Source: Xestospongia bergquistia (lineage: Eukaryota > Porifera > Demospongiae > Haplosclerida > Petrosiidae). From it: a stretch of DNA of 64,000 bases. The DNA lies in NCBI GenBank assembly GCA_963965975.1, contig OZ014414.1:2889501-2953500 (forward strand), given 5' to 3'. Of the stretch, positions 4,341-38,100 are shown in pieces. The first letter of the stretch is position 1. Each line of letters starts with the position of its first letter. A program made the translations under genes and the position numbers. The notes under the pieces were generated by a model. It was not told the origin of the DNA, ran no database searches, and was given only the letters and a program-made list of their open reading frames with translations.

Positions 4341-4377
4341 TTCAGAGGTTTTTAATTTCAGCCTATGCACAGGTATA

Positions 4378-5126: not shown

Positions 5127-5131
5127 CTGAA

Positions 5132-6766
5132 CAGATTCTCTTACAAAGTGGTGTCTGATGTCAATATGTTTTGTTCTCTTGTGTCCAACTGGGTTTCTAG
5201 TCATAGCTATAGTACCCTGGTTATCTTCTCGTATTTGAATTGGTTCTTGATTTTTAGCATGTAAATCATTTAGTAATCTTCTAAGCCATAAAGCTTCTTG
5301 AGTAGCTGATCCTAATGACATATACTCCACCTCTGAGGTAGAGAGTGCTACCGTTGGTTGTTTTTGACTAAGCCAACTAATGGCTCCACCAGCCATAACA
5401 AATACATTTCCTGTGGTAGAGTGACGATTGTTTAAATCATTTGCCCAGTCAGCATCTGAGTATCCAATTATTTCTTGACCTGTGACTTTGTATTGTAGTG
5501 AGAGATTGATAGTACCCTTAAGGTAACGAAGTATTCTCTTTACAGCAGTAAAGTGTGCAACAGTTGGTGATGAATTGTATCGTGATACGACAGCAACAGA
5601 GTGTGATATGTCCGGTCGTGTTGCTCTTTCCAAGTGTAATATACTGCCAACCATGGACTGATAGAGAATCGAGTCAATTGTCTTACTGTAACCATCATCT
5701 TCAACTAGTTTGACGTTAGAGTCCATTGGTGTGGCAACAGTATTAGCGTCAGATAGTCCATATTTCTCCACTAAATGGTGAATATATTGACTTTGGCACA
5801 TGTAAAGACTGTCTTTGGTTCTGTGAAAATTAATACCGAGGCAATAACTCACCGAGGCCTTTCATTTTAAATGTTGATGTCAATGATTTCTCTAGTTGTC
5901 TTATTTCTTCATCTGTTTCTGTAATGGCAATTAGTACATCAACATAAACAGCAATTATTTCAACTTTCTGATTCTTCCTTCGAGTAAATATACAAGGATC
6001 TGCTCCACTTTCTTCAAAACCTAGCGATTTAACATGTTGAGTGAGCTTTTCGTTCCAGCATCGTGGAGATTGTTTTAAACCGTACAAAGATTTTTTGAGT
6101 TTACATACCAATTTTTCTTTTCCTTTCTGTACATATCCTGGAGGTTGCTCCATATATATCTTCATTCAGATCACCATTAAGAAATGCTGTGATAACATCC
6201 ATCTGGTGTACTTTCATTCTTTTCTCTACTGCATAAGCAAGTATTGTGCGAATTGACGAATAGTGAGTAACTGGAGCAAATGTTTCCTCGTAATCAATAC
6301 CATACTTCTGTGTGTGTCCTTGTGCTACGAGACGACCTTTGAACCGCTCAATACTTCCTTGTCCATTATATTTTACCTTAAATATCCATCTAGAGCCGAT
6401 AGCCGTTCTTCCTTCTGGTAACTGAACTAAGTCCCAGGTATCATTTTCGAGTAATGATGCATATTCTGCATCTGTCGCTTCTTTCCACTCTTTAGAGTTG
6501 TGGCTTTGAAATGCTTCTTCAATAGTAGCTGGTTCTACAATCTTGCTAGCTTGATCACATGCCTGGTTGGCATAATCATCATGTCCATAACAAACTGGCG
6601 GTTTTCGTGATCTTTCAGATCGGTGTGGTGGTTGTGAGGTTGGTTCTTCATCTTGTGCAGGAGTGATCTGTTGTTGACTAGGTGCTGTGGGTAAGGTAGG
6701 TTGCACCTCCTGGTCTAATAATTCTTTATTCTCCTCCTGCACCTCAACCTCCCTTTCAATTAACAT
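5132..6766 (-). pseudogene. pol: Copia reverse transcriptase / RNase H
   Basis: Three overlapping open pieces (6101-6766, 5830-6165, 5132-5852) together cover the copia RT and RNase H, separated by frameshifts near 6160 and 5850. Visible signatures include WIFKVK, RLVAQGHTQ, DYEETFAPV, MDVITAFLNGDL, KSLYGLKQSPRCW, the Y-V-D-x box, YSDADWA and KHIDIRHHFVRE. The active-site box reads YVDV rather than YVDD (codon 5935-5937), so the second metal-binding aspartate is lost. The piece is followed at 5126 by the gypsy LTR. Confidence 0.93.
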
Positions 6767-6798
6767 TTCCTCATTATCTATATCTGTATTTGTCTCTT

Positions 6799-7572
6799 CT
6801 ATAGACTCACAGTTATTAATTTCTTTTCCACCATATCATTCTCATTAAAGATGAGGTCATGTCTGACATAGCACCTCCTTTTCTCCTCATCAAAGACTCT
6901 GTAATTCTTTGTTGTTTCAGTGTAACCAATGAACCAGAGCTTGTGGGCTTTCTTATCAAGCTTCTTTGGATTGCCTTCCCAGACATGGGAGTAGACAACA
7001 CACCCAAAAACTCTTATATGTCTTAGGTCAGGTTTCTTTCCAAACCACAATTGGTAAGGGGTGAACTTTGACTGGAGTGCTGTTGTCACCATCCTATTTC
7101 TCAAATAAGATGCTGTAGATACGGCTTCAGCCCAAAGCGAGTTAGGGAGCTTTGCATGTATTAACATTGATTTAGCAGCTTCCATGAGGGTTCTGTTGAA
7201 CCTCTTAGCAGTCCCGTTCTGTTGTGGTGAATGTGCTGCTGTAAATTCCTTTTGAATTCCATTCTCTTTCAGGTAAGTTAAGAACTCTTCAGATGTATAC
7301 TCTCCACCTCTGTCAGCCCTTAGTGCTTTGATAACATGATTTGATTCCTTCTCTACTTCAGCTTTAAATTCCTTAAACTTTTCTAAAGCCTGTGACTTGT
7401 ATCTCATAAAGTAACATCTACAGTAACAGGAATGATCATCGATAAAAGTAATAAAATACCTGCTACCTCCAATTGATTCGGTTTGCATTGGACCACAAAC
7501 ATCTGAGTGAATTAATTGAAGTGGTTCTGTGGACCTAATTTCATTGAGTGGGTGGTGTGGTTTTCTTTGCAT
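6799..7572 (-). pseudogene. pol: Copia integrase core
   Basis: The frame contains HSDVCGPM and FIDDHSCYCRCYFM (first Asp), LRADRGGEYTSEEF (second Asp) and HSPQQNGTAKRFNRTLMEA. The third catalytic position, normally Glu in the (V/T)xERxNR context, is Lys (7204-7206), so the DDE triad is broken. Upstream, 7573-7930 still encodes pieces of the GAG-pre-integrase zinc region (NGKYDFCEACVEAK) but with stops and frame changes. Confidence 0.9.
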
Positions 7573-7932
7573 CTTTGCTTCTACACAAGCCTCACAGAAA
7601 TCATACTTGCCATTAGATGGTATGTCAATACCATCAGCAATAGTACTCAGCTGTGGTAATTGTTGAATATTGACACGCGCTAGTCGTTTATGCCATAGAT
7701 TGGTTTTCTGGTTATCCTCTTTAGTAACGTGAGCAGCTTGTTTTAAACATGGTACTATCTTACAGTCTTACTTGTAAAGTTTTCCTACAGGTGATCCAAC
7801 ACCCACTAGTCGATTTCTTTTGCTACGTATCCAGCACCTTCTTCCAAATGATGTTACGTTTCCATTGGACACTGCTTCTCTAACACTAAATAAATTGGTT
7901 GAGAGTTTTGGAACATACAGTACATTGTTCAA

Positions 7933-8987
7933 CTATCCAGTAATTCGTTTTTGTTTTGGTAGTTGAGAGATAACTTTAATACTTCCGGTTCCTAATGCGT
8001 TCACAGTATGACCATGCCCCAATCCCACTAACTCAGGAGTATCGAACTCTTTGTAATTTCGAATAATACTCCGTTGGAAGGTCATATGTTGACTAGCTCC
8101 AGAGTCTATTATCCAGCCTTCATCTTGTGTTTCGGCTGTCAATGCAGTAGCTTCGTGTGCAATGAACATGACCTGTGGCTCAGAATCTGATTCAGAAGGA
8201 ACACTGCTATCTGTCTTTTCTCCTGTTCTATCTGCTGTGTATTCAGCATGATGCTTTGGCCGCCGACGGCCACGATACTGTTTCTTCTTGGTTTGTTCAG
8301 GCAGTGACCTTCTGCAGTCTCTCTGGAAATGACCTACTTCTCCACACCTATAGCACCGTCTGTCTCCTCTATATCCAACTCTTAGTGCTGAATCTCGGCC
8401 AGACTTTGTCTCACCACTGGCTCCACTACTCTGCCTTTGTTCCTCGTCTAGCAATGCTTGCTTTACAAATATAAGGGTTAGTTCAGCATCTTCCCTTGCA
8501 AGTAGGGCTGTCACCAGCGTTGGGTAACTCTCCTGAACGCTTCGCAATAACATTGCTACCTTGTTTAGCTCACTAATGTTCTCTTCAAGGGCAGTTAACT
8601 GGTCTACTAGTTCATCTAGCTGTCTCAAATGGTCACGAATTAATCCTCCTTTCTTCATTTGAAGACCATACAGTTGCATCAACACGTTAATTTTGTTACT
8701 GACTGTCTTTCTCTCAAATAATTGACACAGTGTATCCCACAGTTCTTTTGGATCTTTGCACTTCTTACTGCTGGGATGTTTCTCTGTCCTATACATTGAA
8801 GTATGGAGTAGAACGCTTTCTGTTTATTAGCCTCATACCCTTGAGCAGAGGAACTTGCTGTACCGGTAACAAACTCTCATTGGCTAGCTGCCTTCAGTGC
8901 ATGAGTCACCTGGAACTTCCAGACTTGCCAATCTTTATCATTGTTCAATTGAGGTATGTTACCAAAAAGTCTGTTGTTATTACTCAT
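7933..8987 (-). pseudogene. gag: Copia gag and start of protease
   Basis: The likely start is the ATG at 8985-8987 (MSNNNRLFGNIPQL). The frame is closed by TGA at 8877-8879 and shifts again near 8796. The long open part (7933-8796) has the UBN2-type gag region, the zinc knuckle CYRCGEVGHFQRDC and the protease start WIIDSGASQHMT with the catalytic D-S-G. It ends in a stop just after the protease region, whereas pol should continue. All this marks a decayed copy. Confidence 0.9.
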
Positions 8988-14677: not shown

Positions 14678-17600
14678 CTACAAAAAACATTAATATTACA
14701 CACATCTTTCGAATGTATCATTATATAGATTATAAGGGTTAATTTGTGAGATTGGCCCAAGAAAAGATATCACATATTATTTATTGTACTTTATGGCTTC
14801 AAATTTCACTTTTAACATTCTTGCAGACACCTCTCTTTTTGTGTGTTTCCAAAGCCATCAACTTAAGGCTTAAAGCAGGAACAATAGCAAAGTAGCCTGA
14901 CAATCAATGTTTTGCAGGAACAATTGCAAGTAGTCTGACAATCAATGTTTTTCTGATTGTAGTTTTAGTAGGAATATATACCACACTAATGCCTGACGAT
15001 AATGTCACAATTTACCATCAAAATGCTTCATTGGGATAGTACATTTGCAGCAATGCACTAAAATAACATGAACTTATCCATTATTACACTACTAGCTTTT
15101 TATGTCAATGGATGCCACTTTCTCATTTACCATGAACTACATAATTACTATAAATTAATAATAACTAAGTTTCATTCCAAGTGATGAAGGATTGGTATAG
15201 CCCTAAAACAAATAATAAAGAAACATATTAAAATGTGAGAAGAAATGTAGGGATGAAATCTATACAAAAGCCCAATACATATATATATATATATTGTATA
15301 TATATATATATATTATATATATATATATAATTATATATATTGTATTTATATATGCAGTAAAATCTTTAACTACATAAAAGGGCAGGACTGATCAGTAACT
15401 ACAAATTGACTATTCACTACTGCCAGTACATACTGTCTTCAGTAGCATATTAATAGTGAGTTTTATTTACTGGATTGACAAAAGGTTTAAAAAAGTGATA
15501 AATATTAGTCACTTATGATGGAATTTTGTATATATTGTATATTCATTGTTGCCACCTTGTTTCTTTCTTTGGTCCTATATCATTCCATATAATATAAACT
15601 CACAGTTCAAAATACAAAAATCTTAGAGCTTGAACAGCTAGTTCGTCTTAACAAATAAAATGTCAAGTCAATACAGATCTCATCACAAGTATTAAGGGTT
15701 ATATCATTGTTGATGACCCAATAAGTCTATCAACTCATGATTTAAAAATGTTGCTTAGAAGCTACATAATATTTTATGGAGGGGCTACATTTCTTGGGTA
15801 ATACCACAAGTCATTTATATAGTCTATGCTATTGTAAAACCACAAGTATATAAATAATACATATATTAGTATACTAATATATAGGCCAATGACAGAGAAC
15901 CATTTCCTAGATAAGGGACCCACTCTATTAATCAATAATAATTTAATGATAATTATACATACAATGATGCACACACAGTGTAACATACCATTGTTTTTAA
16001 AAAATCTTCATAAGCATCTGCTGCATCATTCTGTCTAATAGCTCTTAAAGCATCTAATAAACTCCTCCTTGTGGCTTCTCTTCCTTTCTGCATAATCCAT
16101 AACCGATACATACTGGTACAATCATGACATCCATCTAGATCCACACTGTCTAGTCCTAATTTCACACCTAACTGATTCCATTCCGCTGTTCTAGCATGTG
16201 TAATTAATTCTTCATGTGTAGGTTGTTGATACAAGAGATGATCTGGTAAAGTAGATACATGTACACCTCCTTCAACTACATTACCTGATATGAATTGGAA
16301 AAATATACAGTTTCATATTGATCTAACAAAATGATCTTTGTTTTGTTAAACAATATAACAAGTGTAATCAAGTTATTGGTATTAATACATGTACAGATGA
16401 CTTAACAAGTCACAGTGCATGAAAAACATCTAAATGTATTATAGAATTTCAAAGAAGTCCTGAAAAATAAACTTTTTGGTAAAGCCTTTTTTATTATTTT
16501 AATATCATTTATTTACTGATACCTAAGAAAGAATTGTGAGTATCACCATGGCTAAAAGCACTGGCAGATCTAGGGGGGGAGGGGGGGGGGTGCCTGGGGT
16601 GCACAGGCACCTGCTTTTTATTCTATAATAATATTCATAGTCAATCATTCAGTCACACCCTGTGGTACAAATTATTACTTTAAGAACATTCATAGCAAAT
16701 TCTTGCAGCCAGATCTTACAATTAAAGGGGTGTGCTATGAATAATAAATATTGTGAATATTTATTAGGGTTAAAAATTTTGCCATGCGCTACGCACGAAA
16801 TCTGTGCACCCCCTATTTTTACACTCTGAATCCTCTAGTGGCTGAAAGTCTGCTAGTGAGCAGTGATTAGGCAATAATGGTCAACCTCATATAGTCTGAC
16901 ATTCCTAAAGCTCTCTTGCATGAGCAAGCCTATTGCCAGCTACAGAATGCCTGTAGCATGTATGTAACAATAAAGTAGGCTTCACAAAAAGGATCATTTC
17001 ACTGAACTCATTTAACAGATAGCCCTCATTCACACTTCAAGCCAACATGACAATTTTTGCATTTTTCATGAAATCTCAGAATTAGAATAACAAGTGTGTA
17101 TGAAATATCAAAAAACTGTATCCACTCCTTTGACTATAATACATTTTGAAGGAAAACGACTATTGTAAAGGCAGTAAGACATGATTGTCACATTAATTAG
17201 GAATTTAATAGGAAAATCAATGGTATGGGTCTATTAAAACTAGATCAGAGTCTAAGATGAAAGAAATAACTAACCAATTATTTTTGACTAGTCAAGAATA
17301 GTTAATAATTGTAGGTGTGTCATCAAATTACATGCAAAATTTACATTTGACAATGTCAATAGATGAAAAGCCTGGAAGCCATTTACAACATTCATTATAG
17401 TACTAGACAAAAATATATTGAACTTGGCAAATCATTTCAATACATGTATAATCTTTAGTGTAATATATTATAATATAAATAATTAATCAGGCTATTTTAT
17501 GGATACAGCTTATTAAATTCAATAAATCATGATATAAGGAAATCTAGATAGTTTGTATATTCAAAAAAATTGAGGCTCTAAATATGAGGATGTCTTCAAA

Positions 17601-20600
17601 AAAGGAAGGTGGACTTTATGTATTCTATCAGGTAAAGGACTTTTCTCTTTTACAAAATAGTCAAAGTCATGTACATACATACAACATTATATTATACTAT
17701 GACATGAGTGTCAGGTAGTCTATAGCTTTTAATAACATGTTATGTAGAAAAATACTTGTTAAATGCTAAAATTAATTTATATATATATATATTGGATGTC
17801 ATATATTGTCTGCTGAAAATTTAAATTATCTTGTGTCAGTGCTAATATGATTATATTAGAAATTATATGACAAAAGTTACACCTCATATATAACTAGCTA
17901 ATGAACTTGAATATACATGCATTTTTAATTACTTCACTTTTTTAGTCAAAATAAACTAACCTGTAAACCAAGGTAGCTGACGTGACTTATCAGTATTAGT
18001 TGTTTGAGAGCTATCTTGACAAATACACTTTACTTTGTCTTCACTTAAACGGCAAAAATGTTCTGAATCTTTTTTAGGGCAATTGGATCTTGTACAATAA
18101 AAATATTCATTGACACTTTTCACATTAGCCATATATTGGAATTTACTTATCACTTCATTGATTCCTGTGTAGATGATATATCGTAAAGTGAAGCATTCTG
18201 TAGAAAAGCCAGAATAATATACTGCAATCCAATAAATTCCATCAACTAAAAGAACATCACCAGAATCAGTTTGTAAAGTGATGACATTACGATAACGTGG
18301 TGTTAAATCAGTAGGGAGTTTAAGTTGAAATCTCGGTAGCTCTGTACGATGTAGAAGGTTTACAACTAATTCAGGGAATACACCTCGAGGAAGAGGCTTC
18401 ATATCCCAAGATAAAATAAGAGGGTCTACGTATTCCTTAAAAGGAAGTGGTATGGACTTGTAGTCAGTTGAAGAGGTTGTAGCAAGAACTGTGGGAAGGA
18501 AGTATTTTCCTTTCTCAGGTAAAGAGGCCATTATAAATAAACTTGTCATTAAATTAAGAAAATCTTGTGGTGTAAACTCAGGATAGAATGCTTGTGATAA
18601 ATGTGAATTGGGTGATGTCAACAAGTCTTCTTTAAATGTTCCTTCATTTTTTAGTTCTTCATGAGCAGCATAATTATATATAGGGATACCTTCTTCCTCC
18701 AAGAAATCAATAGCATTAGCAAAAGATATACTGATTAAATCAGAGAGTTTGTTAAAAAGTGGCTGTGGATGAAGGAAAGCTACATTAGGTAAGATTTTAG
18801 GAAAGTATAGAAAGATGGTCAGGTCATGATAGAAGTTTAGAGCTGCTATAACATCACTAGCACTCATTTGTAAGGTCTTACCAATCTTTAAACAATTAGA
18901 CAGACTTACAATGTTGGATTGAGAAGATCTTTGGAGCTCAAGTTGAAACAAAAACCATCGAATAGGGATTCCCTCCTTGATGTAATATTGGCAAATTTTC
19001 TTACGAATTTTAGTAGCCATTTTCATCTCATCATTACATCTGCCAATAGTATTGATTGGAAAAATTATTTCATTTCCAGCTCTGTGATGTATAACTGTGA
19101 TATCCCGAAATTTCTTTAAAGCTGCTGAGAGAATTGTATTTTTCTTTTGGAGAGACTCATAAGATTCAACCATTTTATCCAAGAATGTCCCTAATACTAT
19201 GTGGACAGGTTTTTGAACATGTTCGATAGGATTATTTGGTAATACAGAATAATTTATTGACAATACTGAGCGAAACATAGATTCAATAAGTTGCAAATTT
19301 GTGATCTGTTTCTCTACTGGCTCATCAATTAACTTTCCCTCAAAACTATAGAAGAATTTAGCTTTGTCCTCAAGCCTCTCAGTTAGTTTGTGCGTGAGAA
19401 TATTGACAGAGTGATATCGTAACAAAGCTGGAGCAATATCTATAAATGCAGCCTGACCACCAGTATCAACACCATATATCCAATGACATTTATAAAGCTC
19501 TTCAGACTTTCCTACAAAGCCTAAGATGTCTATGATTTCCTGAGTTACAGAAGGTTTTGGTAAAGAGCTTTCATCAACTATTTGTTCATGTCCAGCTGTG
19601 GGTGATGGATCAGAGCCATTACTACCAGACATTTCTTTTAGATTGTTCGTTGGGTGATCAAATGATTCATCTAATGGCTGGTTTATTACTTTGATTTCTG
19701 ATGAAATATCAGGTTTCTTAACTACTTCTGGTTTGTGAGGGTGGATACTATGTTTCACTCCTTGAGCAATTACTAATAGTAAAATGTCATTGTCTATTTT
19801 TCTCCACATGCAATCATCCCCTACAGTTACTGTAGCAGATATAATCCTTGCTTCTTTTGTTGCAATTACTGGAGTACTGTTATGACAATCTGGAGGATCT
19901 TCATTGTAAAGTAGGTTTAAAAAGGATGACTTGCCAGTTCCAGGAGCGCCTGAGACAGAAAACTTGGTCCACTTAACAGTGACATAACCTTCATTCATTG
20001 CTTTAGCAAGTAACATCTTGTTAGCAACTAATGTATAATAGAAATAAAATTTCAAACTCTAAGTAATCAATGTTAAGAAGGATTATATAACACATTATAT
20101 TGATGATTTTTTTTTAAAATTTACTAAGTATAAAATATAGATATTTTAAATTTCCAATTGAATCTTTTAGTACTAACTAGAATATATAATTCTTTGTATA
20201 CATGTACAATAGATAAATAGAGCAAAGGAAAGGTGTGATTACAATACAACATAAATTTATATGGCTACAATAAAAATGAACACATGTACAATTGACTAGA
20301 GTCATTTCAGTAACAATTACAAACAACATGTTTACAATAGTAATGTATGTAATGTTTGAACTTTCATTGTTATATATAGAGTTCAGAAAAGCTTATACAA
20401 TAGTGTTTACATTAAGGTGACCAGTATAATTTCTTTATACCAATCACTTTTTATTAAATCAGTGGGTCTAATGTTGTGATAATAAGCCACTAGTATATTG
20501 ATAATTTATATTAGTACAGTAAACTTATAAGGTCTTGTGGTTAGGAAGAGAAATCACTGAAACAACTTGGAAACATTCTAATCTCCTAGAAATTTGATAA

Positions 20601-23600
20601 GGAATTATGAGAAGTAAAGAGAAGTATTTATGGAGTGTGATATCAGTAATGATCCTGGTACAGTTACTCATACACAAAACTTTTATTTAGTAACAAAGGT
20701 CAGAATTCATATCTAGGAATACTCAGGATTAAGGTTTGTATATGCACTGAACTCCTAGATAAACTCCAGAATGATCCATCCCAGGGTGCAATAGGTATTA
20801 AAGGAATGAAGGATACATGATATTAAAGGATCCATACACATGTCCAGGGCTAGTAAAGACCATCCAAGGATATATTAAGGACCACATATACAGTACTAAC
20901 CATTAAGTGATACCTTGATATGCACTGGGCTCTTAATTGATACTCACAATCCCAGAATGCAATAAGTATCAAGTAATTCCACTGATAATGGATACGTATG
21001 CACTTTACTAGTACTAGTGAATTGACCATTTTAGGATATACAACAATTAGTATGACTTTTTCACACTAAGAAATGTGTATGAGTTGGAGTCATGTCATGT
21101 ATATATGTGATACTTGGTATTAAAGAACATACATGTACTAAACACAATCAGTATCCATTTATAGATACTCAGTCTTGACATTGGTCTGGTATTAGTGACT
21201 AGTTACTATCCTGGGATATATAGGATTGCTATTTAATACAAAGGACAAGACATGGTAGTACTGGGAATCACTCTTTTTGGAAGCTGAAGATCAAAACAAG
21301 CTAAGGTAAATTGTTTGTTTAAAAACATTTATAAGTCTGCCTGGTATGCCAAGTAAATTAAGTAATATACATCCTCTCACATGAGCATTTGTTTCTAATC
21401 TAATAGTAATAGTCTTATAGGACCTTTGTATATTACTCATATTGTTTACTATGATAATATAAAACTATCAGTTAGTCCTGGGAAGAAGCTATAATTATAA
21501 CACTACAGTAAATGTCCAGTGTAACAGTTAACATAATGTATTGACATATTATATAGAAATTATATTACCTGGATCAATAGTTTTAGTAACACGATTACAA
21601 ATAGATGGAACTCTATAAAACACACCTATATGAACAAACAAATTATAGATAATATCAATAATAATGATGAATTAATTAATAATGACCTAATGTTTGGATA
21701 TACTAACTACAAGTTAATACAGTTATTAGCTATGTTGTTGTCAAAATTATATAAAATTAATAAACTATAATTAAGAGAACTGTCTGTTCTTTCACTCAAA
21801 CCTAACATTACATATTTTGAACCAAATGTTCCATATATATTACATAACTCTGATGTATCAGTAATATATACCATGCTCTTAAGGAGGGGTCATTATGTTA
21901 GTATATTTAACACAATAATTTTTAATTAATGATGGGTGTGTCTAGAGTATTATGGGAAGTCCTACTATGATCACCATAAATCTAGATTCAAGGACATTTG
22001 CACTGTGTACAGTTTCTGTAATGCTGATCTAGACAAGTAATAAATAAAACTTATCAAATTCTTTGACAAATGAATGATAAAATTTTGTAATTCTAAAGTT
22101 TGTATTATACTGTCCATTGACAGTGACAATATTAATAAAACAACCTTGTTACTTAATAACTTACTAAATTTAAGGTAATGACGTAGCGTAATAGCTAGTT
22201 CCTTGTTGATAATAATAGGATTCTCCAAAGCAGTAATAAATGTTTCCCAGGTAACTGGAGATGGTTTAGTATCTTTCCAGATTTTAATTACTTCATCAAC
22301 TTTTTCAATATCGCTCTTCTGACTGTCCTTTAAATCATTCAAAATATTGCAATGTACTTGTAATGCCAATCCAAATTCATACCACTTGTCACTAATCTCA
22401 GGTAAGTTACGGAAATAATTCTCATGGGCAGGAATCTCCTTTAATATACTGGTAATATCTGAGATGATAACAAAATAATTATTATAAAACTGTCATATTA
22501 TAAATTAATTTAATACAAAAGTTGGAACATAAAATTGTAATTATATTTATACAATTAACTAGAACATCTACATGTTACATTCAGCTGATGTACATTATGT
22601 GTGAACAATGTTGATTCAAACTGAATTAAATACACTTCACAGTAATAGTCTGAACATCACTATTAATAACCTCATTACTTAATAATAATAACTTATTACC
22701 CTTACCTGTACTAAGATATTCACGTATTAGATCAGCTATATTCTTGTCATTAACAATAGGACTCTCAATAGCAGATATCACTGTCGCCCAGGTAACAGAG
22801 GATGGTTGAGTAGTCAGAAAGTTGTCAATAACAGCAAAAAGTTTTGCGAAATCATTGTTTTTTAAATTGTCCAAAATATTACGGTCTATTTGTAATGATA
22901 TTCCAATATCATACCATTTGTGTCTAATATCAGATAACAGCTCAAATAGTTCATATTGTGTAGGAGTCTCCTTTAATATACTGGTAATATCTGAGATAAT
23001 AACAAAACAAACATTATAATAAACTGTACCATTACAAATTAAGCAATGTCTTTAAAATTGTTATTTTAAATGTATGTGGTATTGATTAATTATTCACAAA
23101 TGAAAACTTCAATTATCAATAAATGTATACATGTACTACGAACTAACTTATTTTCCTATTGACCTACACTAATGAAGAATATCAACTTATCATGATTACA
23201 ATCAATGGAGCAGGGACTGGAATAAGGCTAGGCTTACATTTCTTAAGGTAATGAGGACAATCTAACTCATCATTAGTGACTAATAGATATGTATACAACA
23301 TAAAGGCTATATCATGGGTTCCCTGAACTAACCTCTTGTATACTTAATTCAAACTTATAGTTTGTATAATTACAAGCAAGAATAAGGATATCCTACATGA
23401 GTGTTAGAAATAGTTGATGAGCTAATTTCATCAACTATTGTCATCTGAGCTGACACTAACTAAGTTCATCTTAGGTTAGTGGGATATTATTGTCAATGTA
23501 ATTGCCAACTATTATTACAAGAGTAGCATCAGATTATGTATTATAAATAATAATTCTGGAGAAAATTTTTATTATAATAAATGTAATCAAGCACAGAGGA

Positions 23601-23849
23601 TGTGTTTTTAATAGTAGTGTTACCTCGTTTAGGTCCAGGATTGAGTTCAACATCTCCTGATAAAATGAGGAGAAGTAGGACAAAGATTCCTAAAGAGAAA
23701 GTAAGATCTTTAGCCTTCTTGATTATAGTCACTCCATGGATCTTATTACTGCTCTCAGTGTTTGGAGTCTCTTTAGAATGAGTACTATATGATATCTGAC
23801 AACATGTCCATAATCCAATACTCGCTCTCCATTGAGATATATCAATCAT
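14603..23849 (-). CDS. 2A-leader / death-fold x2 / Roc-COR-like GTPase / death-domain protein (complete, 7 exons)
   Basis: Minus-strand exons with GT-AG junctions: 23849-23624, 22990-22706, 22458-22165, 21625-21569, 20027-17961, 16284-15989, 14677-14603. They sum to 3300 nt, exactly 1099 codons plus TGA. Domains in order: leader with hydrophobic segment and 2A-like DVELNPGP (about residues 1-75), two death-fold modules (76-268), linker (269-287), GTPase with P-loop GAPGTGKS (about 314-321), DTGGQ (about 475-479) and TFLDK (about 568-572), a COR-like region (about 640-750), a Cys-rich end, a death domain (977-1075) and a 24-residue tail. Likely a signalling or immune-type adaptor; the ligand is unknown. 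Start Met is chosen because MIDISQW is conserved in the gene at 55948; an in-frame Met lies nine codons upstream. Confidence 0.85.
15281..15348. repeat. AT microsatellite
   Basis: Long (AT)n runs interrupted by single bases, in the last intron of the GTPase gene. Confidence 0.9.
15989..16284 (-). CDS. Exon 6: C-terminal death domain
   Basis: 296 nt, from phase 1 to phase 0. It encodes QPTHEELITHARTAEWNQLG, LGLDSVDLDGCHDC, YRLWIMQKGREATRRSLLDAL and NDAADAYEDFLKTM, a classical death-domain pattern (W-x-x-L-G, L-x-x-W, A-T-x-x-x-L-L-x-A-L). Equivalent exons: 32134-32429 (296 nt) and 63801 onward; a deleted copy is at 10531-10698. Confidence 0.88.
16555..16855. mobile_element. Probable MITE-like element with G-rich / C-rich ends
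   Basis: The left side has cactggcagatctagggggg with a long G run and tgcacaggcacc. The right side has tgtgcaccccctattttt, then aatcctctagtggctg. The ends are imperfectly complementary (ctggcagat...agggg against ccccct...ctagtgg). It lies in the intron between the GTPase and death-domain exons. No clear target duplication was found. Confidence 0.4.
17961..20027 (-). CDS. Exon 5: Roc-COR-like GTPase region
   Basis: 689 codons. G1 is SGAPGTGKSSF and the G3-like motif is YGVDTGGQAAF; the G4-like motif VLGTFLDK is weak. A low-complexity insert of about 100 residues separates G1 from G3. The following part (GIPIRWFLFQLEL, NFYHDLTIFLYFP, LHPQPLFNKLSDL) has the COR-domain pattern of Roco proteins. 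The C-terminal part has YWIAVYYSG and a Cys/His cluster (FYCTRSNCPKKDSEHFC...CIC) that may bind metal. The acceptor CATTAG and donor GTTAGT keep phase 1 on both sides. Confidence 0.85.
20700..21260. repeat. Dispersed intronic repeat (CACTGGGCTC family)
   Basis: Shares ordered blocks (tcccagg, tatgcactgggctc, ccaggatatac, gagttggggtcat, tatcctgggatatataggattgct) with 33160-33800 and partly 14310-14520. It marks the segmental duplication that made the two minus-strand genes. Confidence 0.6.
21569..21625 (-). CDS. Exon 4: short linker
   Basis: 57 nt, phase 1 to 1 (about VFYRVPSICNRVTKTIDP). The paralogous exon at 34144-34200 has the same length and phase but a different sequence, which supports its being real. 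Low-complexity flanks make the acceptor less certain than the others. Confidence 0.65.
22165..22458 (-). CDS. Exon 3: second death-fold module
   Basis: 98 codons, phase 1 to 1, acceptor CTCAG and donor GTAAGT. It contains DKWYEFGLALQVHCNILNDL and PVTWETFITALENP, clearly a duplicate of exon 2. Confidence 0.8.
22706..22990 (-). CDS. Exon 2: death-fold module
   Basis: 95 codons, phase 1 to phase 1. Pattern: DITSILKETP, HKWYDIGISLQI, ILDNLK, VTWATVISAIESP, IADLIREYL. It repeats in exon 3, in two exons of the gene at 32134-38469 and in the exon at 56412. The spacing of W/IG/L...L and W/VTW/IAD/L fits a six-helix death-fold, but the exact subfamily (DD, CARD or DED) cannot be told by eye. Confidence 0.8.
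23624..23849 (-). CDS. Exon 1: hydrophobic leader ending in 2A-like motif
   Basis: It encodes MIDISQWRASIGLWTCC..., a hydrophobic run (LGIFVLLLLILS) and then GDVELNPGP (DVELNPGP codons at 23631-23654). The exon ends phase 1 at a GGTAAC donor. D-V/I-E-x-N-P-G-P is the ribosome-skipping consensus; the last Gly-Pro bond would not be formed, releasing a 72-residue leader. N-terminal 2A sequences combined with signal-like segments are known from sea-urchin NLR-type proteins. Confidence 0.85.
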
Positions 23850-26784: not shown

Positions 26785-29196
26785 TTACGTAACCTGCTTG
26801 TACAAGTAGACATTTTTACACTTACTTCTTTAAAATTTAGTTTTCTCTTCTCAATGAAACACTTTGCTACCTGTAAATGTAAATGAACAGTATGCAAGTG
26901 AATGATGTCTTACCATGCAGACAAATACCCCACAATCGCAGGCATTACTCTGTGTTAGACTCTTGCACATCTGTGTGTATATAAGTACCATAAAAGTACA
27001 TTTGCGGATGTGTAATGTACTTTGGAATCACGGTATCTCCAATTACTAACGGATAGTTTAAACTTTGACAATCTACACAAATATAGCCTGTGTTTTTTTT
27101 AAATGTTATCTTATGTAATAATTTCTTACCATATACTATTTATTAAATGAGGCCGACTATTATGATATGAATCAACTTCATATATGACCTTATCATTTAC
27201 ATCAACGACCTATGTAATGTATCCCAAACATATATTGTGTTCATTAAGGCACTGACGATGAGAAACCAATGTTGTGAACAATGAATAGGAAATATGATCA
27301 TGTCTTTCTCTAACAGATTTTTGCCCTATAATTTATTACTTTTCACACTTTGTTAAAATTGTAAAAGCCTTACATATTTTATAACACCACTAAAGCCTCT
27401 TGCTCTTAATAATGGAAGGAATGTGGAATCGACAATTGCTATGTTTCTCTAGTTTTAACAATTTCTGTGACGTGCATGTAAAATGATTTGACTTACATCT
27501 TTTGCTAACAATATTAAGTAATTCATTATCACCTACACAAGTATATAGTATTATATATATGTATATATATATTTATACATAATATATACACTGTTTACTT
27601 TTGCAGTTAGCCACACTCCTGGCTGTAAAGTATTGTATGGTGCCTTAATCTCTTTCCAGTCCTTTATTCAAATATATAGAATTAATTCTTTGCTAGCAAT
27701 GCACTTACTATTTCCTTGTCTTCATTAACAACAACAAGTGGACTCTAATAGAAATATTATAACAGTAAAGTATGCACATTTTAACAACAGACTGACTTCG
27801 TTCCATGTTAAAATTAGTGGACAATCTATCACTTTTAATACAGTCTATAGTTAGCAAAATGAATTACAATATGTATTATGTGATATGCAATAATTGCATG
27901 CTAACCTCAGACTCATCAGACTTGTATATAGCTAGACATACATTTCTCTAAGAGGCAATCATAATGATGCATTGTTTTTATTATCTTTACTCACTGAAAT
28001 TTAATCTATATTTCTGTTGTAATCATAGTTAGTATTTATGTTATTGTCATCATATTCAATCCATTCTCCACCTGGCGTTTTCACTAATGCAGTGTCTATT
28101 GTGTTTGTTTTAATGTGGGTATCTTATAGCTGTATAATAACTTACAGTGACCTGTATCTACAGAGGTTGGATGTCCATGATGAACCTAAATGGAAGCAAG
28201 ATTAAAAGGAAACTTTCATTGTAATCAGTACTAACAGCTATTCCATGTAATCTGTAAGTTCCTGAGGTGTAATCATGTCTGGTAGTACTTTCAATTGTAA
28301 TAGACCTATCAGATATAATATCAGATGGATTACATTGCCTGCATCTTACTCTTGTAGCAACAATGGCTTGTTTGACTTTTTACTTGAATGTGTGTTTCGA
28401 GAAATGCCTATTATCTGTACATCAGGCAATGAAGCAACTTTTGTGCTAACAGTCATTAGATGTTCATTGCAAGGTATGCATCTGTAGGCTTTATTATGAC
28501 ATTATTATCCACAATAAACAGCTTACAAATGATGGGTTGATTCATCTGAGTAACAAGATATCTTCTTCCACCACAATTCTGATATGCGGTCTTTATGTCC
28601 AACTACTGAAATTAATAGTATTTTTGTATACTCTTCTCCAACATATATCTACTTGTTAATATAAACAACACAGTGATCATCACTATAACAGACCTCCTTG
28701 CAAATAGGACATTGTTTCTCAGTGATTGTATACATATTAAACAGTTTCTGTTAATTAGACAAACATCTTACTTCATTACAGTTGTATATTTCTTAAATCT
28801 CTATTACCTCCATTGATTGAACAGTAACAGCATCAACAAGTAATTCTATTCCTTCTATTACATCATTCTGGCCACCAAAATCTATATGTGTTCATGTCAT
28901 CAATGTCTATTAAATTACATACATTATATCATATTGCCTAGAAATAAATGAGTACTGTTATCATCTGTGAATTAACAACGTTATCTTCTACTGCACACTC
29001 AATGTTTAAGTATTCTTTCTGTACTGGTGTTAATTCTGCTTGTGGTATACCTATTAAAATAATTCATCAATGCTTCAAAGTTTGGGGTTTCTAATTACCA
29101 CAAAGATGTTTTGCCAGGGGTGTTACATGCAATAACTGGAGGACACAGTTTATCCAACATAGGTTGCTGGTTTTATTTTCAAAACCCTTGTTATGT
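26785..29196 (-). CDS. USP-like plus ULP1/SENP-like cysteine protease, many small exons (5' end not found)
   Basis: USP part: 29196-29099 gives GFENKTSNLCWINCVLQLL (Cys box, Cys at 29157-29159); 28881-28808 gives GGQNDVIEGIELLVDA (QQD-box-like); CPIC and CIPC pairs resemble the zinc ribbon; 28185-28146 joined to the exon from 28095 gives TGHY (His box) and GGEWIEYDD. ULP1 part: 27661-27599 and the next exon give LQPGVWLTAK/VIMNYLILLAKD; then FPIHCSQHWFLI (His 27269-27271), YEVDSYHN (Asp) and 26970-26914 LTQSNACDCGVFVCM (Gln and Cys). Introns are about 45-70 nt and the ULP1 exons keep phase. An in-frame TAA (28001-28003) lies between the halves. Likely removes ubiquitin and/or SUMO-type modifiers. 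Some USP junctions are approximate. Confidence 0.7.
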
Positions 29197-29257
29197 CTAT
29201 AGCACAACTCCAGTGGTGCTCCAGTCTCAAAGATCTGTCATATAAAAACATCTTGTC

Positions 29258-30290
29258 AAAGGTAAGTCTAGTACAAATACTATCATCAGTTGTTTTGATA
29301 TGGGTGTGTCTTTCCCACCCAGCAATAAGGCCATTTGTTCATTTTTTAGTACATTTCCTCTTATTGCTGGCTATTAAGACTTTGAATGTGAACGACGATA
29401 TGATATTCAAGTGTGTCAAGTTAGTACAAATACTATCGTCTGTTGTTTTGATATGGGTGTATCTTTCCCACCCAGCAATATGGCCATTTGTTCATGTTAT
29501 AGTACATTTCCTCTTATTGCTGGCTTTTGAGACTTTGAATGTGAATGACAATATGATATTTGAGTGTGTCCGATTAGTAAAAATACTATCGTCAGTTGTT
29601 TTGATATGGGTGTGTCTTTCCCACCCAGCAATAAGGCCATTTGTTTATTTTTTAGTACATTTCCTCTTATTGCTGGCTTTAGAGACTTTGAATGTGAACG
29701 ACAATATGATATTTGAGTGTGTCAGGTTAGTACAAATACTATCATCAGTTGTTTTGATGTGGGTGTGTCTTTCCCTCCCAGCAATAAGGCTATTTGTTCA
29801 TTTTTTAGTACATTTCCTCTTATTGCTGGCTTTTGAGACTTTGAATGTGAATGACAATATGATATTTGAGTGTGTCAGGTTAGTAAAAATACTATTGTCA
29901 GTTGTTTTGATATGGGTGTGTCTTTCCCACCCAGCAATAAGGCCATTTGTTTATTTTACATTTCCTCTTATTGCTGGCTTTTGAGACTTTGAATGTGTGA
30001 CGACGATATGATATTCAAGTGTATCAAGTTAGTACAACTACTATCGTCAGTTGTTTTGATGTGGGAGTGTCTTTCCCACCCAGCAATAAGGCCATTTGTT
30101 TATTTTTTAGTACATTTCCTCTTATTGCTGGCTTTTGAGACTATGAATATGAACGACAATATGATATTCAAGTGTGTCAAGTTAGTACAAATAGAATCGT
30201 CAGTTGTTTTGATATGGGTGTGTCTTTACCACCCAGCAATAAGGCCATTTGTTCATTTTAGTACATTTCCTCTTATTGCTGGCTATTGAG
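29258..30290 (+). repeat. 153-bp tandem satellite, about 6.7 units
   Basis: Unit starts (tatcrtcagttg) at 29281, 29434, 29587, 29740, 29893, 30042 and about 30195. The period is 153 bp, with one unit of 149 because of small indels. Each unit contains ccagcaataagg and its inverted copy cttattgctgg about 50 bp apart, a hairpin. It lies just upstream of the first recognised USP exon. Confidence 0.93.
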
Positions 30291-32133
30291 TCCATTTTTT
30301 GTGAACCATTGTAATGATGTATATTAAGAAGTCACATTGAATGATGTTGTCACCTTGTATATTACAAGCCATTATGATCTTATATTTGCACATAAGATGT
30401 GAAGCTTGTCACTGTTTTTAACTACTGTTTTTAACTCAGTAATAAAATTCATGTAAATGTTTATAATAACCTAATGTTTTATAAATTTGTATGCAAAACA
30501 ATCTAGTGTAAAAAATTAATGACAAACGTTCCTGGAGACCAGTAACTACAGTGCTAGTTTCTTGATTATTGTTTATACTAACAATTTTATGCTAAAAATT
30601 TTGTTTTTAAGAAAATATGAAAAGTGATTTTTTAAAAAATTATTAAACAAACTGTTTAGAAAAGATTTAATTGGCTATCATTTATAATATATTAACTAAA
30701 TCGATGGAATGTTCTGTCCTACACACAATGTTGTTGTAAGTTTTCCGTATCTGCAGCTCCACCCTATATACAATGTTGTTGTACGTTTTCCGTATACAGC
30801 AACTGCAGCTCCACCCTATCAAAAATACTTGAAACCACAAATATTTAATAAGGCGTGGTTTTCTAGTACCTGAGGAATGTGCTGCTAACTTCAATGGACT
30901 TATTTCAAGAGTTGAGAAAAGATTAAACTAACTTCTTGTTAGGCTATAATGCTGTTATTACATTACATATATTATATATAATTAAATTCTTATAATCAGC
31001 TTGTGATGTAATAATGTGCATAGTCTTTAAACAATAATGACCATGTACTACTAGTACATACATAGCACAATATGATTAGTTAACAAGTTAATTAAAGTAG
31101 TGTAATCAGCTTCTTAGGGTCTAGAACAATTAAAAAGTTTCTTTTACTAAGACATTGAGTTATGTATCTGTGGAATTAATAGATAATAATTATATACAGT
31201 AACTACTGAATATACCTAACTATCAATAATTATAATGATGTAATTAGAGTTAGCTCCTGTGTAAATGGTTAAAATGTCAAATTTTCATACACTTAGTAAT
31301 GTTACTATGTTTAACATAAGCTTGACCAAGAAGACTGAGTATAAGTGAGAACTTACATAGTTCATTGTTCAAGTATGTTCTACTCTTGTCTTTTATAAGT
31401 CTTAAGATAAAAACATAACTTACTATATTGTACTTGTTAATATACATAACATCACTTATACAGATTGAACACTCTCATTATTTCCCACATACAAAGTTGA
31501 GTAATTAAGTTAATATTACAGTGACCAGACAATGAATATTATTATATCATTTGATCTTGCTTTAAATATGTTCATAGCATACAATACATTATACACAAAC
31601 TCCTCAAGTTCAAAAATTGTCAGTAATCAAAAGTGGCATCATTTTCTGAAAAAAATGCTTTAACATTTGATCTAACATCTTGCTATTTAATGAACCTTAT
31701 AAGGCCAAGAACTTTCACTAGTACAGTTGCAATAAGTGGTATAAATTCACTTCAAACTTCAATAGCTTCAATTATAGAAATCTTAGTGGCTAAATCTTTG
31801 ACTCAATGTTTAGCCATACTTAATACTTAGTCTGGTACACATGTTAATGAGAGTAATAGCACATGAGCTAATGTGAAGAGAATAAATTTTATTGTTTTAA
31901 TCAGAATTGTGCCTACTCCAATATAGCATTTTGTGTTTACAAATTGTTTGCATAATTATAAAGCAAGTCTTATATAAATATATTGGAAACATTACATCTA
32001 AAATCATCCAAGTTGTGATTAGCATCAAAATAGATCAATAATACAGGGTTATTCTTAGCTAAGGGTTCCACTCTATGTACATGTATACATTAATATATGG
32101 AGTATACATTGATATATGGACAATGTACCTTAC
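30291..32133. other. Non-coding spacer
   Basis: Contains a local duplication (30725-30770 and 30765-30815: ttgttgta, gttttccgtat, ctgcagctccaccctat) and a copy of the 9600-10370 repeat at about 31080-31480. A terminal exon for the upstream gene was looked for and not found. Confidence 0.5.
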
Positions 32134-35100
32134 TGTTGTTTTTAAATAATCTTCATAAGCATCTGCTACATTATTCAGTCTAATATCTCTTAAACCATTT
32201 AATAAACTCCTCCTTGTTGCTCCTCTTCCTTTTTCCATAATCCATACCTGATACATTCTGGTACAATCATGACATCCAGATAGATCCACACTGTTCAGTC
32301 CTAGTTTCACACCCAACACATTCCATTCAGCTGTTCTAGCATGTGATATTAATTCTTCATGTGTAGGTTGTTGATCCAAGAGATGATCTGGTAAAGTAGA
32401 TATATGTACATCTCCTTTAACTATATTACCTAATATGAAATAAAAACTCATACAATCTTTGTTAGACAAAGAAACAAGAGTGTAAATTATGTTATTGATA
32501 ATAACACATGTATAGATGACAAGACAGAACAAAAGATACAGCTAATAATGTGGGTGTGTCATCATATCAAATGTGATGTTCATACTGTGCAATTGATAAG
32601 GCTAGAAAGATATAGAAATTAGATAAACATTTCAACATCTATCATCATTAGTGGCTTACAAACAAAGATGAAGTAACTATTTGATAGACACTGATTATTA
32701 AATCAGATAAATCAGAGCAATATTATAAGGAATGATCCTAAGAGTTTGTAGATTTAATTTAATGATGTTTAGTAGGCTTATATATGTGGTTGGCTCCAAA
32801 AGAAAGGAAGGTGAACATTGTGTGTTATAAACAGAGCTAGATATCAGGTAACAGGCTATTCTCATTTATAACCATTGAATGTTGTTCAGAGAAAATACAT
32901 GTGTATTATTATGACAATAAACTATATCCCAAAAATTAAATCACAATTATAAACTACATACAACATATATTATAAAGAATAGCTTTTATAATGTGAATAG
33001 ATTTAAGTTTCACTGTCACTCAAAAGGCTATCATGAAGCACAAGGATTGCTAATGTTTGGAGATACTAATTCATAGCTCATAAAGCTTATTCACATTAAG
33101 GCAACAATATATTAATATTATGGGTGTATATATACTGGGCTCCAAAATAAAACCTTGAATGAAGAATCTCAGGATGGACTTAATGCCAAGAAATACTCAG
33201 TATTAGGTGATTTTTAGGTATTCACTGGCCTCCTGAGATTCACTATCCTAGGGTGTAATAAGTATCCAGTAAACAGTGCTTAAGGATACACATGCACTGG
33301 GCTAATGAATTGACCAAGGATATACTAATGTGTGTATGAATACTTAGTAATAAGGAATGTAACAGTGATAACGTGAGTTGAGGAAGGCACATGTACTAAA
33401 CACGGCCAGTATCAAGTTTAAGGATACTTGGTGTTAACATAGGTCCAGTCTTAAGACTACTTATAGTATTAAGTGTAACTGTTATATAGGTATGTACTGG
33501 GCTCCTAAGACTCACAATCACAGGATCTACAAAATATATATCTAATGACACTAGTGTTTAGAGATATGGATGCACTAGGCTAATGAATTGACCATTCCAG
33601 GATGTACTACAGTTAGTATGAATACTTAGTACTAAGGAATCTGTACATCTCTTGAGTTGGGGTCATATCAAGATGTACCAATGATACTGTGTATTGAGGA
33701 ACATAAATGTACTGAACACAGCTAGTATCAATTTAAGGATACTCACTGTTGACATTGGTCCAGTCTTAGAGACAACTTAGTATCCTGGGATATATAGGAT
33801 TGCTACTTCATACAATGGACAAAATGTGGTAATACAAGACATCAATTTTTTAAGTTAGAGTTAACAACAAGTGAAAGGAATTGTTTGTTAAAAAACAACT
33901 ATAGTATGGTCTACTATGACAAGTAAATTAAGTAATATACATCCTCTTACATGAGCATTTGTCTCTATTCTAATACTAATAGTCTTATAGGACCTTTGTT
34001 ATTACTCACATTAATATTGTTTACTATGATAATATAAAACTATCAGTTAGTCCTGGGAAGAAGCTATAATTATAATACTACAGTAAATGTCCAGTGTAAC
34101 AGTTAACATAATGTATTGACATATTACATAGAAATTAAATTACCTGATTCAGATCGTTCAGTGTCAGGATTAAGATTAGATCCAAGTCTTTTAATTACTT
34201 CTACATGAACAAATAGATTATAGATAATATCAATAATAATGATAAATTAATTAATAATGACCTAATGTTTGGATATACTAACTATAAGTTACTACAGTTA
34301 TTAGTTATGCTGTTGTCAAAATTATATAAAATTAATAAACTATAACTGAACTGTCAGTTCTTTCACTCAAACTTAACATTACATATTTTGGACCACATGT
34401 TCTGTATGTATTACATAACTCTGATGTATCAGTACTTGTACAACACAAATCATTAATAAACTAGTCAGATTGCTTAGGTCAATAAATAACGTATACATGT
34501 CGCAAGGAGGTATGTAAGTTCTTATATGATTTTTTCTTGAGACTGTGATTTTTCAGGTTAAAGCAATCAATATCACTAAATTTCTGTGATATGTTTGTAT
34601 TTTATCCAAATCAGTAAATATTATAGCAAACATGAAATAGTATGATAATAATATGAAAACTTGAAATTGTAAGTAAGAAATAATTCAAAAATATCCAAAT
34701 CTACACAACTCAAGACTATTCTGTTTATGGAAGGCAATGATCCTGAAAGTGTGAAACAAACAAAGATTGAGATTTAAAGAATGAATTTGATGATAACAAT
34801 GTAGTTATCTATAACATCTTTAACTTCAACAGTAACTGTGAACTAAATAGATAAGAATTACTATCAAGTCAATATATTTATTCCATGTGTGTACATGTTA
34901 TGAAACATACTGTAAGATAGACACATCCTATAAATCAGCACAATTAAAGTTCATTCTAAATACCAGTACTACATACTACTTGTATGTTGTCATATAGAGA
35001 AAACTACATCAAAGTCTTTGACAACAGAATTATAAAATTGGTAAATGAAAAGTTTGCTTATTAATATTGACAGTATTAATGTAACATCCCTCATCATTTA

Positions 35101-38100
35101 AAAATAACTAACAACTTACCAATTTTAAGACATCTATATATATAGTCAGCTATCACCTTGTTGTTATTAATTGGACTATCAAATGCAGCAATTACTGTTT
35201 CCCAGGTAACAGTAGATGATTGAGTATCTATCCAGATGTTGATGACTTTTTTGAGTTTGGTTATATTGTCAACTTCACTTTTTGTAAGATCATCTAAAAC
35301 ATTGTGACGTACTTGTAATAATAATCCAATATCACACCATTTGTCTCTGATATCAAATAATCGAAAAAATAGTTCATCTTTTGTAGGAGTCTTCTTTAAT
35401 ATACTGGTAACATCTGAGATAAAAAAATAACTATTATAACGAACTGTCACATTATAAACTAATTAATGACTTAAAAACTATTATTTTAAATGTATGTTAA
35501 GATATTGTATACAGCAAAAAGTGATGATTTAATCATCCAACTACCAACAGCTCTACAACGTCTTATGGATGTTGCCAGCAAGAAGGGACTTTCAACCTGG
35601 TTACAGACCTTCCTCTGGCCAAACATGGGTTTGCTGTTCTTAAAAAAGCACTTCGTGGAGCAATCAATCTGCTTGCAATACGGTTGAAGACCACTTTCAC
35701 TTCCTTGACAGTGCGTGTGGAAAGGCATTCAATGTAGAACATGCACTGAGCTGCTGGTGTGTTGCCTTCCCATCTATTTGACACAATGAGATTAGAGATA
35801 TATTCTCACAGCTTCTCTCTGAAGTATTTCCTGTGTTGGCACTGAACCTACTTTATAAATTCCTACTGGAGAGAAAAAAATACAGTACATGTCGTCTAAT
35901 ATAGATGATGGTGCTCAAGTTGACATTACAGCCAGAGGCTTTGGGGACTGTAAGCAACAGAATGCATTTTTCAATGTTAGGCTTTTCAATCCCCAAGTTT
36001 TGCGAATTGCAAATGGCAATAGCATCTTGCTACAGGAAAACTTGAGCAAGAGAAAAGAAGACAGTGCAACCAAAGAGTGAGGGAAGCGGAACATGGCTGC
36101 TTCACACCACTACTCTTCTTTGGTGCTAGAGATTTTGAACAGCTGCCACTACTTTTTTAAAGAAAGGATCGCAAAAATATTGTCATTAAAATATGATTAC
36201 CCATAAAGTGTCACCATGAACTGGCTGAGATGCAGAATAGGCTTTTTTCTCTCTCATGTCTTTGATGATGGTTCTGAACAGACAATTGGTTTTGCATCAT
36301 GCACCCTAGCTCCAGCTGAAAGAAATATTCTTAGTTGGAAAAAAGCCTTTATAGCAATTGTATTCAGAGTCAAATGATTCCATGAATATCTCTATGGCTG
36401 ACCATTCACATTATTGACTGATCACAAACCTATCTTCATCAGTCAAATGCAACCAAAGTAGATCCCACCCAATATGGACTCTGCACAACATTGGGCTTTA
36501 CCTCTGAGTCTGAGTACCTACAAGTACAAAATCTCCTACTGGCCGGCAAAAGCATCTTGTAATGAATTCAATAAAAACTTTGGCAGTTATCTTTGTTGAT
36601 ACATTGAGAGCGAAGTTAAAAACCATAGCTGTCATTGGAGAATCACTAACTTTTAATAAGAAGTTGGAGGTATTGGACCTTTTGTCAATTAGAGTGCAAA
36701 GTACCCAATAGATGCATTAAAAGGCAAAGCTTTTTTCCCTTTGATTGAAGAGTCATCAATAATATTCTTGTGCATCACGTGAGATTACATCAGGCTAAAA
36801 AGAATAAAGTCTCTGGATAAGACCGCAGTGAGGTTAAGCACTTTAGTGCATTTCATTCCAACAGTATACAGTGAATTTGTTGCTCCGCATAATAAACAAA
36901 AGAAAAAACATGATCATCATATAGTTTCAAAAGTATTTTGACATGGAGACCTTGTAAATATTGTAAGTATATTATGTCCTTGTGTCCTCTGTGGATTCCT
37001 GGACCCAGCAGACTGATCTTATACAAATACATGCATCTAACCAACGGTAGTGACATTTGATGTCATGTCAATCATTAGTATGTCTTGCGCTTTAATCAGT
37101 AAACGCTATATTAGACTTGTCTAATGATTCACATTTTGGTACTGCACCAAACACATTCTCTGCCTCCACAAAATTTTGAATCACAATCAGATGTTTGCCA
37201 CTAATCCCAAATTCAAAACACTCTTATTTGTTATAATCCTTGCCAATGATGAGAAGAATGTACCATATTAGACAAATTAGCTCTTACAACTTACCATTTG
37301 TCTGTATATTTTTAATTAGTCTCTTCTTGTTATTGTACATTGTTATTTTGGTGCAACGTATTGACAGTGACATTTGGTTTGGTTCGCATTCAATTCAGTT
37401 TAATAAATATTACATCTATAAACTGACTTGATTCCATTCAAAAAGGATTGTTGACCTTATAAGTTTGATATTATGTGTAAGACATGAGCTGCCTACAAAC
37501 TGATCACAATTAATCATAACAAGTACTAAACTTTCCTGTGTTCAAATGTAATCATCATCAAACAACTTTGAAGTGGATTGAGACTAATGTGATTGTTCAA
37601 TCACATTCAGCTAATGTACATTGTGAATGTTGATTTAAAATGAATTGAATTCACTATGTGGGAGTACTCTGAACACCATTATTAATATCCTCATTACTTA
37701 ATAATAATAAGATATTAATCTTACCTCTAAGATAACGACGTATCAGATCAGGTATCTCCTTGTCATTAACAGTAGGACTCTCAAATGCAGTAATCACTGT
37801 TTCCCAGGTAACAGAGGACAGTTGACTATTTTTCCAGATGTTGATGACTTTCTCAAATTTGGTTATGTCATTGCCCTCGCTTTGCTTTAAATCATCTAAA
37901 ACATCGCAATGCACTTGTAATGATGATCCAATATCATACCATTTGTCACTAAAATCAAATAAGACATTGAATAGTTCGTATTTTGTAGGAGTCTCCTTTA
38001 ATACACTGGTAATATCTGAGATAACAAAAAAAATTATAACAAACTGTCACATTATTAATTAATGGCTTAAATTTACCATTTTTAATGTATGTGGTATTGA

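Follow-up and report, generated by a model that had tools for sequence, protein, structure and literature searches.

The question raised by this locus is why a putative sponge receptor gene should begin with a separate exon that ends in a 2A (StopGo) motif, and what becomes of the peptide in front of that motif. The exon is found in a 64,000 nt stretch of Xestospongia bergquistia DNA (the window), which starts at C4:2889501. It occupies positions 23624–23849, an interval given exactly by an initial annotation, and is on the minus strand, which that annotation did not state. The reading frame opens with an ATG at 23849 and runs to 23624, where a GTAACA donor follows in phase 1. The translation is MIDISQWRASIGLW...LLLLILSGDVELNPGP-KR and consists of a head (MIDISQWRASIGLW), a variable linker that is polar in this leader, a hydrophobic segment and SGDVELNPGP-KR. 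The leader is 73 residues long counted to the final Pro, and the product released at the motif is predicted to be Gly-ended and 72 residues long, the size first proposed for it. Residues 45–71 are hydrophobic (Kyte-Doolittle windows > 1.6) and continue into the octapeptide DVELNPGP (positions 23631–23654, minus strand; pattern match C4:2913132-2913154). LSGDVELNPGP thus directly follows a hydrophobic segment, as had been noticed, and represents a canonical L-rich 2A. The octapeptide agrees with the 2A/StopGo consensus (D/G/C/N)(V/I)ExNPGP, and the preceding LLILSG is the upstream context of a described StopGo class. Because the splice junction is two codons and one base beyond the final Pro, the 2A is complete within exon 1.

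Four further exons follow on the minus strand. Exon 2 (positions 22706–22990, DITSILKETP...) and exon 3 (positions 22165–22458), which is similar to it, encode a first and a second death-fold domain. Exon 4 (positions 17961–20027) encodes a Roc-COR GTPase with a GAPGTGKSS P-loop and DTGGQ, and exon 5 (about 15989–16284) a C-terminal Death domain (PF00531, Pfam E 5e-9); the exon 5 acceptor was read off the sequence and the uncertain 3' end was estimated from a GTATGT donor. Joined at consensus acceptors and donors, exons 1–4 would form a single open frame of 957 codons with all junctions in phase 1, a joining predicted from splice sites and phase. Pfam alone identifies neither of the first two death folds, and a Pfam search of the Roc-COR exon in the window matched neither Roc nor COR (among 59 aligned Roc-COR rows, 27 match COR-A and one matches Roc); predicted structures were therefore needed. 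The predicted structure of exon 4 gives 22 PDB matches at E ≤ 0.001, all 22 of them Roco/LRRK proteins, which strongly backs its assignment as a Roc GTPase followed by COR, the order found in Roco proteins. Predicted structures back the six-helix death fold of exons 2 and 3 fairly well; searching the sequences of the PDB with exon 2 had no useful result, and one row containing a stop was left out of the death-fold alignment. The Pfam Death exon and the predicted structures together uphold the initial assignment of a Roc-COR/death-domain protein behind the leader. Roco proteins with Death domains include DAPK1 and MFHAS1/MASL1. The window gene shares Roc-COR and a Death domain with these, but differs in its 2A leader and in the pair of death folds at its N-terminus, and no kinase, ankyrin or LRR is present in the exons read. 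A near copy of the gene is found about 116 kb away (C4:2788000-2797700), with 97% identity in the leader, 93% in the first death fold and 94–95% in Roc-COR, where the match is split into two pieces.

The motif and the leader are abundant in the genome. The exact codon pattern for D(V/I/M)ExNPGP is present at 161 sites in 146 Mb, compared with none for the reversed pattern. A protein search of the genome with the leader gave 150 matches at E ≤ 0.01 (150 of 181 candidates scored). Among the 150 listed, 130 are stop-free and near full length, and at least one leader is counted as two matches (C4:3426092 and C4:3426223). On contigs C1–C9, for which the motif list is complete, the exact octapeptide is kept in 63 of 69 stop-free matches, two of the remaining six having GVELNPGP, while it is present in two and absent from six of the eight matches that contain stops. 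On the same contigs 23 of 88 exact motifs are outside any leader match; the one of these that was read is the PHD-finger-like 2A of locus L055, described below. The head is also found independently of the 2A: the pattern M-I-D-x-x-(Q/H)-W-R occurs at 126 sites in the genome, compared with none in a control. All 58 of these sites on C1–C9 were used, and 45 have an exact 2A 165–210 bp downstream, each at a distance divisible by three (chance about 0.0004 per site). The 13 sites with no exact 2A nearby and the six stop-bearing leaders that lack one imply that some copies are decayed, variant or head-only. A GT donor is at the identical place and phase in all 27 fetched leaders, which have distinct DNA and were picked for head and NPGP. 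From its sequence, the leader looks like a shared working part and not an oddity of one gene.

The genes behind the leader are of several kinds. For 100 of the 150 listed leader matches a NACHT, ankyrin-type, ZU5 or Roc-COR exon is present within 12 kb downstream, on the same strand and before the next leader, and the other 50 have none of the four within 12 kb. The nearest domain is NACHT for 47 leaders, ankyrin-type for 32, ZU5 for 12 and Roc-COR for nine. On the opposite strand there are only six pairings within 12 kb among the 150 listed leaders, and 200 random placements give a mean of 6.3 and a maximum of 12; neither control was cut at the next leader, a bias in favor of the controls. 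The domain rows used were 95 NACHT, 149 ankyrin-type, 70 Roc-COR and 150 ZU5 (of 151 ZU5 matches), and the association is one of position and orientation, not proof of a common transcript. Of 94 NACHT rows, 47 are preceded within 6 kb by a leader on the same strand and one by a leader on the opposite strand (the row left out is on contig C2 with no leader near). The 28 NACHT rows of contig C2 have no leader within 6 kb upstream. Roc-COR is the rarer partner, with a leader within 12 kb upstream in only nine of 70 matches, none of them on C11 or C12. Eight of these nine pairings are at 2.5–3.6 Mb of contig C4, and the ninth, on C3, is weak with 11.4 kb between leader and domain. The order and orientation leader, death fold, Roc-COR is found in nine of 20 fetched 10-kb loci in addition to the window, although two of the nine have a Roc-COR match of only 23% identity and one has no more than a fragment of it. 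The 2A on a Roc-COR/death-domain gene, as initially annotated, is thus present with its death-fold and Roc-COR exons downstream, but it is not a feature of one gene, as it also precedes NACHT, ankyrin-type and ZU5 exons.

The window itself has a second gene of this type on the plus strand. Its 2A leader (MIDISQWRINIGLW...LLLILSDDVEFNPGP, positions 55948–56163) ends at a GT donor in the same phase as in the first gene, and the two leaders, 32 kb apart, are only 49% identical. It is followed by a death-fold exon (positions 56411–56701; Pfam Death 0.016, under the cut-off), a ZU5-like exon (positions 61454–62143; a weak Pfam match, E 0.011, under the curated cut-off) and a Death-domain exon (positions 63782–64000) that is truncated by the window end. 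A third gene-like set of exons, at 32104–38016 on the minus strand, encodes a Death domain in addition to two death folds, and neither a leader nor a Roc-COR match is near it.

The initial annotation had suggested a search for such leaders across sponge genomes. When proteins were searched with the leader, 101 relatives were obtained; 95 of the 101 have the canonical octapeptide, and one of the 101 is an Amphimedon queenslandica protein. The complete gene model, used as query at E ≤ 1, matched five proteins. Four are from A. queenslandica (E 4e-7 to 8e-3); three of these have NACHT and one has ankyrin repeats, and all four begin with MIDISQWRASIGLW and have the 2A. The fifth (E 0.75) begins with MIDISQWRASIGHW and has leader and ankyrin in a single open frame. 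In a small tree of 25 leaders an Amphimedon NACHT leader is sister to an ankyrin leader (97/95). Leaders of Roc-COR and of NACHT genes occur together in a group of twelve (91/97, which the rule of the tool treats as an open fork). This mixing of leaders from different architectures, in a short alignment, suggests that the leader was exchanged among them or homogenized.

Conservation within the leader is concentrated at its two ends. The 15 leaders of equal length have a pN/pS of 0.14 in the octapeptide and 0.23 in the head, compared with 0.51 in the hydrophobic part and 0.89 in the linker. For all 27 leaders the values are 0.12 (octapeptide), 0.18 (head) and 0.38 (hydrophobic part); pairs of related copies are non-independent, and the picking of leaders for NPGP biases the octapeptide value and also constrained some head positions. 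In 102 database leaders, from which four of 106 with an altered or missing head were excluded, the head is near invariant at positions 1–3, 6–8 and 11–14 and less so at 4, 5, 9 and 10; the patterns and queries used for collection favored the head, and part of this conservation is built in. Head positions outside the selecting pattern are nevertheless kept in nearly all of the 102 (Gln6 in 99, Ile11 in 97, Gly12 in 102, Leu13 in 96 and Trp14 in 101). An amphipathic helix in the head was considered and rejected, as its helical moment of 0.027 is equaled or exceeded by 98% of shuffles. Among the 98 database leaders that have an octapeptide it is DVELNPGP in 75 and DIELNPGP in 21, and an L-rich hexapeptide ending in SG is present in all 98. 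Codon use in the octapeptide is unusually uniform: in all 27 fetched leaders Glu is encoded by GAA and the last Pro by CCT, and synonymous change there (pS 0.15–0.20) is below that of the head (0.26–0.48) and of the hydrophobic part. This codon signal is not pressed, since the motif was a criterion in choosing the leaders and viral StopGo sites have no single dominant codon in the available text of PMC12846837.

An N-terminal 2A in animal immune genes has a precedent, as the initial annotation correctly noted, in the 2A signal sequences of sea-urchin NLRs (SpNLR2A, Roulston et al. 2016, PMC4981915). In the portions of that paper available, a sea-urchin relative skips at about 80%, and when skipping is blocked the cargo goes to the Golgi and the medium. 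This sea-urchin leader, MDGFCLLYLLLILLMRSGDVETNPGP as read from a primer in the methods of that paper, is of the same make as the sponge leader: both are N-terminal and hydrophobic, have an L-rich stretch followed by SGDVExNPGP, and front genes of large immune families. They differ in length, the 14 sea-urchin leaders tabulated having 26 residues at the extreme N-terminus, as against 66 to 174 residues to the Pro in the sponge leaders of the database and 73, with a separate head, in the window. The sponge leader also differs in its conserved 14-residue head, in being an exon of its own, and in its presence before ankyrin-type, ZU5 and Roc-COR exons; the window gene, being Roc-COR, does not have the leader in front of a NACHT/NLR as in the sea-urchin type. 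The L-rich viral StopGo class (motifs 2 and 6, PMC12846837) has LLILSG or LLLLSG before D(V/I)ExNPGP as well. According to the available text an example of motif 6, which is LLLLSG-like, is active in reticulocyte lysate. The sponge leader is unlike this class in being cellular and N-terminal and in having L in place of the preferred S before NPGP.

The described L-rich class with its active example, together with the sea-urchin leader at about 80%, leads to the expectation that skipping at the window leader would very probably be efficient. The ribosome exit tunnel is 30–40 residues long. During translation the head and linker would leave the tunnel first. With NPG at the peptidyl center, the L-rich segment and DVELNPG in the tunnel would block formation of the Gly-Pro bond, the 72-residue leader would be set free, and the same ribosome would continue with a cytosolic protein that has an N-terminal Pro and the order death fold, death fold, Roc-COR, Death. 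The released leader is predicted to be a small membrane-inserting peptide that carries the MIDISQWRASIGLW head and is made in fixed ratio to the receptor; the minority of chains that escape skipping may be tethered to the membrane. Conservation of the first 14 residues, next to a linker that can change almost freely, makes it most likely that the released leader is itself a product. The distance between head and 2A is large and variable, so that action of the head inside the tunnel is unlikely; being out of the tunnel before the skip decision, the head could serve NLR, ankyrin, ZU5 and Roc-COR receptors alike as a partner, as a sensor or in the regulation of skipping. That the head is part of a product with a function is the step held least firmly and is only slightly favored. 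Its conservation could also reflect a role in targeting or as an RNA element instead of a peptide product. The overall reading, in which an active StopGo leader yields both a small membrane peptide with a conserved head and a cytosolic death-fold receptor, is given an even chance, and this agrees with the strengths of its two parts, efficient skipping and head function, taken in combination.

The function proposed in the initial annotation, a switch of localization, places the purpose of the leader in the unskipped minority, which would go to membranes or outside, the skipped majority being cytosolic. In HeLa and in plant cells, SpNLR2A6 has been shown to act as such a switch (available text of PMC4981915). 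The 2A does follow a hydrophobic segment, and by simple scales this segment is of signal-anchor strength in all 27 fetched leaders. A pure switch does not account for the conserved 14-residue head, however, and does not predict it at a distance of about 25 to 130 residues from the hydrophobic segment. That segment would also still be inside the tunnel at the skip decision, and a GTPase in the ER lumen would presumably be without cytosolic partners. The switch is therefore a possible but rather unlikely account of the leader. Matters would be different if the 2A were inactive in sponge ribosomes and the leader an ordinary signal anchor of membrane-bound receptors. This would fit the transmembrane NLRs reported in Amphimedon and Dysidea and the transmembrane domains in sponge NLR architectures (PMC12909245, as far as its available text goes), and four longer Amphimedon leaders do have two or three hydrophobic segments each. 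A signal anchor, however, gives no reason to retain DVELNPGP, and the octapeptide has the lowest pN/pS, in the biased set, and is DVELNPGP or DIELNPGP in nearly all database leaders; an inactive 2A is quite improbable.

2A sequences are also known from non-LTR retrotransposons, where Odon et al. reportedly described them in 2013. A captured piece of such an element, spread with the genes and functionless, would explain the octapeptide and L-rich lead that these elements share with the sponge leader. A different 2A class (LLLLLSGDIELNPGP), with a similar octapeptide, is present in the same genome at locus L055 (C4:8604300-8604700), where it is followed by a PHD-finger-like cysteine/histidine stretch, an arrangement known from retrotransposons. 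The L055 2A is probably of retrotransposon type, and nine further sites on C4 have its motif DNA, one with a changed base. Yet L055, the sole example read, has no MIDISQW head and has different domains downstream. The donor phase, moreover, is fixed in the 27 leaders, and the leader is present in Amphimedon proteins. In the window gene, death folds and Roc-COR are found downstream in place of an in-frame endonuclease or reverse transcriptase, and open frames of at least 100 residues between its exons include no reverse transcriptase. A captured and functionless piece is thus very improbable. The leader might instead attenuate expression, StopGo ending some ribosomes after NPG and thereby limiting receptor output, perhaps according to stress state. 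Control through eEF2 activity was proposed by Roulston and colleagues (available text of PMC4981915), and StopGo with a secretion signal is described as selected, in certain cases, to terminate many ribosomes (available text of PMC5009743). The conservation of the head is left just as unexplained by an attenuator, which is considered unlikely.

The co-production of a membrane peptide and a cytosolic receptor, if correct, bears on how StopGo is used. A paper of 2026 in PNAS (PMC12846837) describes it, in the text available, as never or only rarely used by cellular organisms. About 130 intact leaders in one sponge genome would make it standard in a large animal receptor repertoire, and some reported sponge transmembrane NLRs may be recast as cytosolic receptors freed from their leader. 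The MIDISQWRASIGLW head would be a concrete peptide that can be tested as a component shared within the immunity of early-diverging animals. It is tentatively suggested that sponges themselves use the 2A as a device of gene expression: a common leader cassette, exchanged between at least four receptor architectures, would yield a conserved membrane micropeptide along with every receptor. The strings MIDISQW, SQWRASIG and LSGDVELNPGP are in no paper of the literature searched. In their available texts, Roulston et al. 2016 (PMC4981915) does not mention Amphimedon or Porifera, PMC12846837 does not mention Amphimedon, Porifera or sponge, and the sponge NLR paper PMC12909245 has NLR transmembrane domains but neither '2A-like' nor 'leader'. 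As far as the literature searched goes, the sponge family, the separate head, the use with at least four architectures including Roc-COR, and the numbers given here are new; the survey of eukaryotic and viral 2A by Rao et al. 2025 is outside that literature and may already include some sponge leaders.

Other features of the window are remains of LTR retrotransposons and several open frames. Positions 1338–8823 (minus strand) have RNase H and integrase domains, presumably of Ty3 type, followed by integrase and related domains, presumably of copia type. Three long open frames at 51974–55520 (plus strand) have no Pfam match at E ≤ 0.01. Open frames at 29163–30289 (plus strand) consist of a repeated hydrophobic unit (...LSSVVLIWVCLSHPAIRPFVHFLVHFLLLLA...) with only weak Pfam matches.
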